From assembly GCF_000423525.1 (NCBI RefSeq), contig NZ_AUID01000001.1:124001-188000 (forward strand): 64,000 nucleotides of DNA. The letters are read 5' to 3'. The DNA comes from Proteocatella sphenisci DSM 23131 (lineage in GTDB: Bacteria > Bacillota > Clostridia > Peptostreptococcales > Filifactoraceae). Below the pieces are notes generated by a model. It made no database searches and had not been told where the DNA came from. It saw only the letters and a list, made by a program, of their open reading frames with translations. A program made the position numbers and the translations under genes. Position 1 is the first letter of the stretch. Every line of letters begins with the position of its first letter. Shown one piece after another: positions 14,119-64,000 of the stretch.

Positions 14119-16350
14119 CTAAACTCTTTCGTGGAAGGTTCTTTTTATTACCTCGATCTGTTGGTCTTTGCTTAGCTTTACGAAATTGACTGCATATCCA
14201 GAAACTCTTATTGTAAGATTTGGGTATAAATGCGGGTTTTTGTATGCTTCTACAAGCTTTTCTCTTTCAAGAACATTTACATTTATGTGATGTGCATTTT
14301 GTGCAAAATATCCATCTATTATACTGCTTAGATTTTCCCTGCTCTCTGCTTCAGTTTTTCCAAGAGCCTGAGGCACTATAGAAAACGTGCATGAAATCCC
14401 ATCTTGACATGATTCATAAGGTATCTTTGCTACAGAATTCAGTGATGCCAGAGCTCCTTGTGTTTCTCTGTTGTGCATGGGATTGGCTCCAGGAGCAAAT
14501 GCTTCTCCTTTTTTTCTTCCATCTGGTGTAGAACCTGTTTTTTTCCCATACACTACATTAGAAGTTATAGTAAGAACTGACAGAGTATGTTTTGAGTTTC
14601 TGTATGTCGGATTTTTCTTTAATGACTCATGAAATTTTACTATCTGATCTACTGCAATCTGGTCTACTCTGTCATCATCATTTCCGTATGTTGGGAAGTC
14701 GCCTTCCACTTCAAAATCTATGATTATTCCATTTTCGTCTCTTAGAGGTTTTACCTTTGCAAATTTTATGGCTGAAAGTGAATCTGCCAGCACCGAAAGT
14801 CCTGCCACCCCAAAAGCCATAAGTCTTTCAACATCTGTATCATGAAGCGCCATCTGAAGTTTTTCATATGCATATTTGTCATGCATATAATGTATTATAT
14901 TCATTGTGTTCACATAAAGCTTTGCAAGCCAGTCTCTGTAGAAATCAAGTTTTTCTATGACCCTATCATATTCCAGGTATTTCCCTTCATATTTTTCTCC
15001 TTGTGGCCCCACTTGCATTCCTGTATTTTCGTCTATTCCTCCATTTAAAGCAACAAGAAGAAGTTTTGCAAGATTTGCTCTTGCTCCAAAAAATTGCATC
15101 TGTTTGCCTACCTTCATTGCAGATACGCAGCAAGCAATAGCATAGTCATCTCCAAACTCAGGCCTCATTAAATCATCATTTTCATACTGGATAGAATCTG
15201 TATCAATTGAAACTTTTGTGCAGAATCTCTTAAAGCCGTCTGGAAGATCTTGTGCCCATAAAACAGTAAGATTGGGCTCTGGAGATGGGCCTAGATTATA
15301 AAGGGTATTTAGTACCCTGAATGAGTTTTTTGTAACCATGGATTTTCCCTGTATTGTCATTCCACCAATACATTCAGTTATCCACATAGGGTCTCCTCCA
15401 AAGAGCTCATTATAATCTTTAGTTCTAAGATGCCTTGCCATTCTCAGCTTCATTACAAAATCATCCATTATCTCCTGAGCCTGTGATTCATCAATTGCCC
15501 CAAGAGCAATATCTCTTTCTATATATATATCAAGGAATGTGCTGGTTCTTCCCAGTGACATGGCTGCCCCATTTTGTTCTTTTATCGCTCCCAGATAGGC
15601 AAAATAAAGCCACTGGACTGCTTCTCTTGAGTTATGTGCCGGTTTTGAAATATCATATCCGTAAGAAAAAGCCATTTCCTTAAGTTTTTTCAAAAAAGCT
15701 ATCTGCTGATATAGTTCTTCCAGACTTCTTATTGAATCCACATCCATTACCTTTTCTCCGACATTCTTCTTATCTATTTCTTTCTCTTCTATGAGTATGT
15801 CTACCCCATAAAGAGCCACTCTTCGATAATCTCCTATTATCCTTCCTCTTCCATACGCATCAGGTAACCCAGTTATTATTCCAGATTTTCTGACTATTTT
15901 CATTTCGTCAGTATATGCCCTAAAAACTCCATCGTTATGAGTTGTTCTGAAACTGAATTCCTTTTCTACTTTATCAGAAAGCTCGTATCCATATTCCTTG
16001 CATGCCGATCTGGTCATCTTTATTCCACCAAAAGGATTTACCGCTCTTTTTAAAGGTCTGTCTGTCTGCAGCCCTACTATTATTTCATTTTCTTTGTCCA
16101 GATATCCTGGCTTAAAATGAGTAAGAGAAGCCACCGTATTCACGTCAATATCAAGCACTCCCCCAAACTGCTTTTCGATTTCAAAAAGTCCATTTAGTTT
16201 TTTCATCATATCGTCAGTTCTTTTACTTGCATTTTTAAGAAAACTTTCATCTCCATCATATGCTTTGTAATTATTTAATATAAAATCACTCACATTAATC
16301 TCATTATTCCAAACTGATTTTTTAAATCCTTCCCACTGCATGAATTTCAT
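14119..16350 (-). CDS. pflB: formate acetyltransferase (pyruvate formate-lyase)
   Basis: A 743-residue glycyl radical enzyme that splits pyruvate with CoA into acetyl-CoA and formate. The radical glycine is Gly718 in RVSGYAV near the C-terminus, and the catalytic cysteine pair is at about residues 406-407 (AIACCVSAM). [20 protein letters not shown] is typical of true PFL. AAGGAGGA precedes the ATG. Expression is controlled by the ZTP riboswitch and terminator just upstream, which links formate production to one-carbon/purine status. Confidence 0.97.
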
Positions 16351-16437: not shown

Positions 16438-16528
16438 CCGGGCAGTATCTAGAGTGTTGCCCAGGCGGTCGGCTGTTATTTATCGATATCTCACGTGGTT
16501 TAATCCACTTATCCGCCAGAAATATCAA
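16438..16528 (-). ncRNA. ZTP riboswitch (pfl motif)
   Basis: The aptamer reads on the minus strand: P1 strand TTGATAT (16522-16528) pairing with ATATCGA, then CTGGCGG, a GTGG/CCAC hairpin, and the highly conserved GCCGACCGCCTGGGCA. GGCGG and CCGCC can form the characteristic pseudoknot, and GGGCA can pair with TGCCC further on. This class senses the purine intermediate ZMP/ZTP, which builds up when 10-formyl-tetrahydrofolate is short, and commonly precedes pfl genes. A terminator follows at 16376-16403, so ligand binding is expected to turn pflBA on. Confidence 0.93.
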
Positions 16529-16592
16529 TACAAGATTATTATATATCTATAATCGATCTAAGTCAATAGCACAAATAGAAAAAATTTTTAGA

Positions 16593-17684: not shown

Positions 17685-17741
17685 TATTGCAATTTTTTAT
17701 TTATTGATATATACTGTTTTAAATGGAGGTTGGATAAAATA

Positions 17742-18176
17742 ATGAATGATAAATATATAGTTTATTTTATAAGTAGAACTAAACAAAAAATGATTCAATT
17801 TATTGAACAAAAATTAGAAGAAAATGGAGTATATGACCTGATAACTTCGCATGGCAATATTCTCACAGCCCTGTATGAAAATAATGGGAAATTGACAATG
17901 AGCCAAATTGCAAAAAAAATAGGTAAAGATAAGTCAACAGTAACACCTTTAATAACCAAGCTGTTTCAGCTTGGTTATATAGACAAACTTAAAAATGATG
18001 ATGATAAAAGAATCACTTATATAACTATCACGGATAAGGGTAGGCAGTTGGAATCCACGTTTAATTCTATCACATCACAGGTTCATGAAACCGCTTATAA
18101 AAATTTCACTCCAGAAGAAAAGCAAATTTTCCTAGAATTGTTAAAAAAGCTGAACATGAACTTTACTAAACTGTAA
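17742..18176 (+). CDS. MarR family transcriptional regulator
   Basis: A 144-residue winged-helix regulator. The DNA-binding part is LTMSQIAKKIGKDKSTVT followed by the wing KNDDDKRITYITITDKG. The ATG at 17742 is used; GGAGGT ends 11 bases upstream, a rather long gap, and an in-frame TTG at 17730 overlaps that box and is rejected. It faces away from the YhdH-family gene and very likely represses it and perhaps itself through the twin operators between them. Confidence 0.9.
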   Translation: MNDKYIVYFISRTKQKMIQFIEQKLEENGVYDLITSHGNILTALYENNGKLTMSQIAKKIGKDKSTVTPLITKLFQLGYIDKLKNDDDKRITYITITDKGRQLESTFNSITSQVHETAYKNFTPEEKQIFLELLKKLNMNFTKL

Positions 18177-18364
18177 TACAAAATACTAATTCAGGTTGAT
18201 ATTTTTCAATAATCAATTTTCATTTGATATATAACAGGTAAAATTAATTAAGAGCTATCTAGGTCATTCAACTGTTTCTTTGTATTGATATGGGGTAAAT
18301 AATTATTATAAATAAATTTGAGAGATTTCAGACATTTTTATAATAATATTTTTGGAGGTATATT

Positions 18365-19656
18365 ATGTTTAATAAAATATTGATAAAAATAAAAAAGAGT
18401 ATATGGATTTATCCTATTTTGTACAGCGCAATATCATTAATCGCGGCTATTTTCATAATAATTATAGATTCGAGGTTTTTTTAAATTTAGAGAATTACCT
18501 GCCTCAGGTTCTATTCACAAGTGTTGATTTAGCAAAAACTATATTAGCCACTATAGCTGGTTCTCTTCTCAGCATGACTACTTTCACTTTTTCAATTACC
18601 ATGGTAGTCTTGACTATGTATTCTTCACAATTTTCATTAAGGACACTTGAAAACTTTCTTAGTGACAAGACAACCATGAAAATTCTTGGGGTTTTTATGG
18701 GAGGATTCGTATATTCCATATCTTCTCTGCTTTTCATGAGGGCTGCTATTTCTGAATACATGGTAATTTCAGCCACCATAGGGGTTATATACGCTATAAC
18801 CTGCCTTGCATATTTTGCTATATTTATACACCATGTAGCTTCTTTGATACAGGTAGAAAATCTAGTTGACCGTCTTTATTCAAGTTCGATTGAAGGTATT
18901 AATAGCTATAAGGAACTCTTAAAGGACAAATCATTTAAAGATGATTTAAATCTTAAGGATTATAATTTTATTTTTGAAATTATAAATGATAAGGTCGGAT
19001 ACATACAACTTGTAGATCATTTTAGGCTACAGGTGATTGCAAAAGAAATATCTGCTACTATTATTTTTGAAAAACTTATAGGACAATTTCTAGTAAAGGA
19101 TACGGTTGTTTTTTTTATATGTTCAAAAGATAAAATTACTATCGATGAAGAATTATCGAATAAATTATTGGATTGCTTAACAATAGGGAAATATCGAAGT
19201 GAACTTCAAGATTTTAATTTCCCAATTCAAAAAATAGTCGAAATATCTTTAAGGGCCATATCACCAGGGATAAACGATCCAAATACGTCTAATCACTGCA
19301 TAAGAATGTTAGGGGTTTTAATAGGGCTCATATCTGATTTTGAAAAAGGATATGTAATACTTAAGGTTGATCAAGAAAATTCAGAGTTTATATTTAAAGC
19401 AATTGATTTTGAAAAAGAACTTTATTTTACTTTCTATCAGATTGTCACCTACGCAAAACACGACGTTTCTGCACTTTTATCAATTTTTACAGCCTTGGGA
19501 TATGTGATGAAAAATGCGACAGATCAAAATCGCGATGTCATAACCTCTTTTTCTGACTATGTCTGGGATCATATTGATAGAAGCTTGAAAAAAGGTTTGG
19601 ATTATCATATATTAAAACATGAAAAAGAAGCTATAATTTGCAAATATATCCCTTAA
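18365..19656 (+). pseudogene. DUF2254 membrane protein, frameshifted after the first membrane helix
   Basis: DUF2254 proteins are multi-pass membrane proteins of unknown role. The true start is the ATG at 18365, six bases after a GGAGGT box. That frame codes for a basic start and one hydrophobic helix (IWIYPILYSAISLIAAIF) and stops at 18482-18484, right after a run of seven T (18476-18482). The rest of the protein (VLFTSVDLAKT, ATIAGSLLSMTTFTFSITMVV and a ~300-residue soluble tail) continues in the -1 frame to 19656. One more T would restore a ~430-residue protein of normal length. It may be a mutation, a sequencing error in the homopolymer, phase variation, or slippage. Translation from the ATG at 18403 would lack helix one and has no good ribosome binding site. 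Confidence 0.8.
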
Positions 19657-63837: not shown

Positions 63838-64000
63838 GGTAGTAATATATGGTACGGTCAGATAACTATCGGTGTAGATGAAAATAGAAAATACAAAAGA
63901 AAATCCGTTTCAGGTAAATCTAAAATGGAAATTTCTGATAAACATCGACAAATAACACATGATATGGGTGTAATGGATGTGGGCAAAGCTAATTCATATA
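63838..64000 (+). pseudogene. degenerate N-terminus of a tyrosine recombinase/integrase (runs off window)
   Basis: The frame from 63838 reads GSNIWYGQITIGVDENRKYK and then RKSVSGKSK, matching the AP2-like DNA-binding start of phage and transposon integrases (W.GQIT.G.DENGK.KRKS.YGK). No start codon is available: a TAG precedes it in frame. Shortly upstream, in another frame, TTT ATA TAC AAA AAA TTA GGG reads FIYKKLG, similar to the IYKRKDG lead-in, so one extra base near 63840 could explain the break. The 3' part lies beyond the window. Confidence 0.6.

Follow-up and report, generated by a model that had tools for sequence, protein, structure and literature searches.

The window (the whole stretch of DNA analyzed here, 64,000 nucleotides) comes from Proteocatella sphenisci DSM 23131, contig NZ_AUID01000001.1, positions 124,001 to 188,000 of the forward strand. 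Downstream of a MarR-family regulator gene lies a gene for a membrane protein of family DUF2254 (Pfam PF10011, InterPro IPR018723), the parts of which fall in two reading frames. The features are as follows, with the basis for each in parentheses.

17730 to 18176, plus strand: MarR-family regulator gene, same strand as and upstream of the DUF2254 gene (Pfam)
18354 to 18359, plus strand: Shine-Dalgarno-like GGAGGT, with identical letters in Peptoclostridium litorale (sequence)
18365 to 18484, plus strand: 39-codon frame 0 piece encoding DUF2254 membrane helix 1, closed by TAA (sequence, Kyte-Doolittle, PF10011)
18403 to 18480, plus strand: 5' part of the −1 open frame, from ATG 18403, without a hydrophobic helix (codon score −4.0)
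18476 to 18482, plus strand: seven-T run, site of the frame change, in a stretch that has one base more in P. litorale (sequence)
18481 to 19656, plus strand: −1 frame, the other 391 residues of DUF2254, with stop (ORF list, Pfam)

The frame 0 start codon is the ATG at 18365 to 18367 and its stop is the TAA at 18482 to 18484, giving a 39-residue product, MFNKILIKIKKSIWIYPILYSAISLIAAIFIIIIDSRFF. This stop sits at the end of the seven-T run, which begins 111 bases into the gene. Helix 1 reaches a Kyte-Doolittle maximum of 2.42, and a weak similarity to the beginning of PF10011 covers residues 1 to 38 (14.4 bits, E = 0.017, under the cut-off). In the ORF list the −1 frame extends from 18403 to 19656, and its portion from 18481 to 19653 matches PF10011 with 284.3 bits (E = 1.6e-84, cut-off 28.8). 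The sequence has three more hydrophobic segments, and the block RAISPGINDPNT is conserved in the second half. The two pieces cover successive positions of the family, 2 to 28 and then 40 to 366, and they abut at the frame-change site when aligned with an intact relative. A profile search of the genome (2.41 Mb, 45 contigs) returned one DUF2254 match, of 285 bits, making the gene single-copy. The first-pass annotation, made from the letters of the window, had placed ATG 18365, the GGAGGT, and helix 1 in one frame and the remainder in the −1 frame, an arrangement borne out by sequence, Pfam, and alignment.

An Rfam scan gave no family match at the DUF2254 gene, and a promoter scan was uninformative (22 sites versus 15.5 expected). 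Elsewhere in the window, a ZMP/ZTP riboswitch (Rfam RF01750, 53.2 bits; 16452 to 16533, minus strand) lies directly upstream of a pyruvate formate lyase-like glycyl radical enzyme gene (14119 to 16350). To our knowledge, such a gene is not an expected partner of this riboswitch.

Relatives at the site and distribution of DUF2254

A scan of named bacterial records yielded 19 DUF2254 loci, two of which (L017 and L019) belong to one MAG and one of which (L021) breaks off where its contig ends, 104 matched residues in. The intact in-frame orthologues expected if the window copy is a pseudogene were found at all 19 loci, each having the helix-1 stretch in one frame with the remainder. Because of this agreement, the alignments indicate that the split is one DUF2254 protein over two frames, not merely ORFs that overlap by chance. 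The conserved frame change in several relatives that marks a programmed frameshift was found at none of the 19, which also weighs against phase variation and slippage.

The nearest relative is P. litorale DSM 5388 (L003), whose protein is 74% identical; the next reaches 56%. DNA alignment of the coding region with P. litorale contains a single one-base gap, up to the last codons, where the ends differ. From a shared AGG to a shared GAGAAT, P. litorale has 15 bases and the window 14, and at that spot P. litorale reads C and then eight T, with the run in frame. By this alignment the window is one base short, and the lost base would be either a T of the run or the neighboring C, two options that a pair of sequences does not distinguish. 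The first-pass annotation had put the switch exactly on seven T, and the run is indeed at the frame change (18476 to 18482), but the lost base need not be a T, since intact P. litorale has a C immediately before its run. Its wording of seven versus eight T is thus one of two options. Of the 19 loci, P. litorale alone shows a T run there; none of comparable length occurs in the other 18, each at most 56% identical. The same-genus genome G001 (88% complete) had no DUF2254 match and so offers no sister copy for comparison.

The P. litorale gene has other genomic neighbors than the window copy. For the DUF2254 gene (18350 to 19631), pS against P. litorale was 0.545, versus 0.73 and 0.79 for two other window genes. 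On account of this lower pS and the different surroundings, the gene was perhaps acquired by lateral transfer.

The relatives also bear on whether translation from ATG 18403 makes a working 417-residue protein without helix 1, which the open −1 frame would permit. This ATG is probably not the true gene start. Its N-terminal stretch is hydrophilic (Kyte-Doolittle maximum −0.18, versus 2.42 for helix 1), the only ribosome-binding candidate upstream is a weak AAGAG, and the P. litorale stretch differs at 6 of 27 residues and reaches a stop once those 27 codons have been read; an internal start is scarcely credible. A second conserved protein encoded by the −1 frame at 18403 to 18480 was likewise rejected: the frame is open in P. 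litorale, but with the same 6 of 27 differences and then the stop.

Within the taxonomic family, 5 of 11 genomes have a DUF2254 match, and among 148 genomes sampled from the order there are 16 carriers, P. sphenisci being counted in both. In 11 of the 16 the reading frame is uninterrupted and close to full length (430 to 483 codons). The copy in G059 is spread over two contigs and was left unjudged, leaving 15 judgeable carriers, 4 of which have differing lesions: P. sphenisci itself, G007 (internal part lost with a frame change), G014 (about the first 160 residues missing), and G082 (L065; start or first part replaced by other ORFs, which we take to be transposase-like). The DUF2254 gene is accessory in the order, and for a gene so often lost a plain inactivating mutation is believable. 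No described function was found in the open literature searched, and a search for a solved structure related by sequence gave no match up to E = 1. Both knotted and unknotted members of the family have been predicted (PMC11184937).

Selection on the gene and possible rescue of the frame

Compared with P. litorale over 424 codons, the window gene has 77, 31, and 151 differences at codon positions 1, 2, and 3, with a pS of 0.51 and a pN of 0.12. A codon model of three species (the window, P. litorale, and Acetoanaerobium pronyense, L004) put branch omega at 0.139 (window), 0.166 (P. litorale), and 0.046 (the long A. pronyense branch), values that are rough because this third branch is saturated. 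Letting the window and P. litorale omega differ gained 0.01 log units. A single omega gave an lnL of −3552.52, freeing only the window (omega 0.201 versus 0.067 for the other two branches) gave −3548.42, and an omega shared by the window and P. litorale gave −3546.80; the window-freed model is therefore better than the single omega but worse than the shared model at equal parameter number. Parsimony counts leaned toward relaxation in the window, with 43 synonymous and 60 replacement changes on its branch and 45 and 38 on the P. litorale branch.

Alignment with relatives revealed no second lesion in the window gene. From its substitution pattern the gene looks to have been functional recently, and the signs of past selection seen in the first pass were confirmed (omega 0.14, versus 0.17 in intact P. 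litorale). Since there is no second lesion and omega is like that of P. litorale, the break is either young or not real; an old, decaying pseudogene is ruled out by the same two observations.

Synonymous change against P. litorale was very low in the first 38 codons (18365 to 18478), where 2 of 28 degenerate same-residue codons had changed, compared with 93 of 274 in the remainder of the gene (Fisher P = 0.0024, for a region chosen after looking). This could reflect an mRNA constraint on the start region.

An omega no higher than that of P. litorale would also fit rescue of the frame during expression, either by RNA polymerase adding a base on the run or by the ribosome shifting −1 at TTT TTT before TAA. 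An added U or a −1 slip of the last TTT would restore the frame; in the slip, the phenylalanine tRNA could leave TTT and pair again one base further back while TAA occupies the following site. Transcript insertions in Escherichia coli and Buchnera increase exponentially with run length (PMC5574713). The window run is seven bases long, whereas in a large share of genomes selection against A/T runs becomes visible at length nine (PMC1088944), and for transcriptional slippage the GeneTack paper gives T runs of more than eight (PMC3711429). The downstream RNA fold is unremarkable (z = −1.53 over the 91 nucleotides from the run end, with 13 of 200 shuffles as good). Close Shine-Dalgarno-type spacing is linked to +1 shifting in prfB; the window has GAGG before the run at a similarly close spacing, but +1 reading stops after 14 codons. 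With none of the 19 relatives changing frame at the site, rescue is considered very unlikely. Programmed −1 frameshifting was dropped as the leading idea, no relative shifting at the site and the fold downstream being ordinary.

The T run as a possible switch or site of error

The contig was scanned over 208,000 bases and 178 main ORFs, within which 268 A/T runs of at least 7 were found. On the coding strand, inside main ORFs with 30-nucleotide margins, there were 31 T7, 4 T8, and 1 T9 runs. Because A/T runs of such length are frequent, a T7 within a gene is commonplace on this contig and the run itself is not special.

This frequency, with the shortness of the run, counts against phase variation, in which replication slippage at the T run would turn the protein on and off between cells. 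In its favor, a shift this close to the start (the run begins after 111 bases of the gene) abolishes the product, and a T run occupies the equivalent position in P. litorale without breaking the frame. A/T runs of at least 7 are mildly enriched in the first 120 nucleotides of ORFs (45 seen versus 29.5 expected), and Orsi et al., discussing A7/A6 changes in inlA, make the case that short A/T tracts near the 5' end function in gene inactivation (PMC2831843). Nevertheless, the other 18 loci have no like T run at the site and no second allele was seen in the one genome, so that phase variation has a very low probability. The normal omega, the P. litorale run, and the scarcity of synonymous changes over codons 1 to 38 would allow a selected low-rate switch, genetic or by transcript slippage, in which cells mostly make the 39-residue peptide and rarely full-length DUF2254, an idea to which we give equally little credence. 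Taken together, a switch, rescue, or an internal start is improbable.

The main rival is a consensus or assembly error, with the gene intact in the cells and one base missing from the deposited sequence at a homopolymer, a possible reading that we hold only tentatively. The assembly is in 45 contigs, the change falls at a homopolymer, and the absence of a second lesion and the omega like that of intact P. litorale are as expected, since a working gene with a consensus error would show the same selection. The GeneTack authors expect isolated frameshifts with BLASTp support to be sequencing errors rather than genuine indels (PMC3711429). Three points lower this reading: the lost base may be the C beside the run, lesions also occur in copies from three other genomes of the order, and no other clear frameshift was seen in the 208,000 bases, mostly judged by eye, despite the 268 A/T runs.

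Several observations support that last count. A frame-tracking model gave many same-strand frame changes, which by eye were ordinary gene junctions. Four of 17 overlapping same-strand ORF pairs were run against Pfam and gave different families within each pair, and the remaining 13 were judged by eye only; widespread homopolymer error along the contig was rejected on the basis of the pairs tested. At contig positions 199022 to 200797, a frame change has no start codon within 45 nucleotides, and its ORFs match different parts of a 2-oxoacid oxidoreductase, which would fit two subunits. Among simulated one-base losses at A/T runs, 86 of 88 were detected at least 150 nucleotides inside ORFs and 9 of 21 at 60 to 150 nucleotides from the ORF start; the model left the DUF2254 break itself unflagged. 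Given this detection rate and the lack of another clear frameshift, gross homopolymer error across the contig is unlikely, although errors near gene starts would often be missed.

The best-scoring unassigned stretches were, by eye, mostly small genes excluded by size and overlap limits, besides some remnants. On the minus strand at contig C1 195782 to 195912 (L035 7782 to 7912, beyond the window), a pair of short coding-like pieces resemble, in our estimation, the start and end of one PhzF-type protein whose middle is gone. Further coding-like pieces at window 63856 to 64000 and L035 1 to 310 may presumably be the remnant of an integrase-like gene.

Probable recent inactivation and known systems

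Plain inactivation, absent from the explanations offered in the first pass, is judged most likely: a recent one-base frameshift would have disabled an accessory, dispensable DUF2254 gene, making it an early pseudogene (probability of about 0.55). The frameshift, the single DUF2254 protein, and past selection all stood from that first reading, while its phase variation and slippage gained little support, the run being short and such runs plentiful. Under recent inactivation, a single base would have been lost at the end of the first membrane helix in a single-copy gene. Ribosomes starting at ATG 18365 would stop after 39 codons, so that the main product would be a short one-helix peptide and the 391-residue remainder would not be made in useful amount. 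Two points here are inferred: the absence of the base from the living cells, and the lack of any useful full-length protein.

The gene should be annotated as frameshifted, with error kept possible; the importance of the case beyond annotation is small. If the break is real, it marks DUF2254 as accessory and easily lost in the order, a weak clue to a habitat-dependent role.

Several known systems invite comparison. In the sequence of both pieces, the window gene is like the DUF2254 family (PF10011), but the window copy lies in two frames while its relatives are intact. Slippage in IS elements and dnaX (PMC1088944) likewise involves a frame change on an A/T run, but there on runs of nine, compared with only seven here, where no relative changes frame. 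The A7/A6 changes of Listeria inlA (PMC2831843) share a short A/T run near the 5' end, a one-base change, and loss of the product; that case has isolates with both alleles and measured frequencies, and this one a single genome. Closest are the singleton frameshifted genes and early pseudogenes described in the GeneTack paper (PMC3711429), where a frame change likewise occurs in one genome with both parts belonging to one family, and from which the window case differs in nothing beyond being one more.
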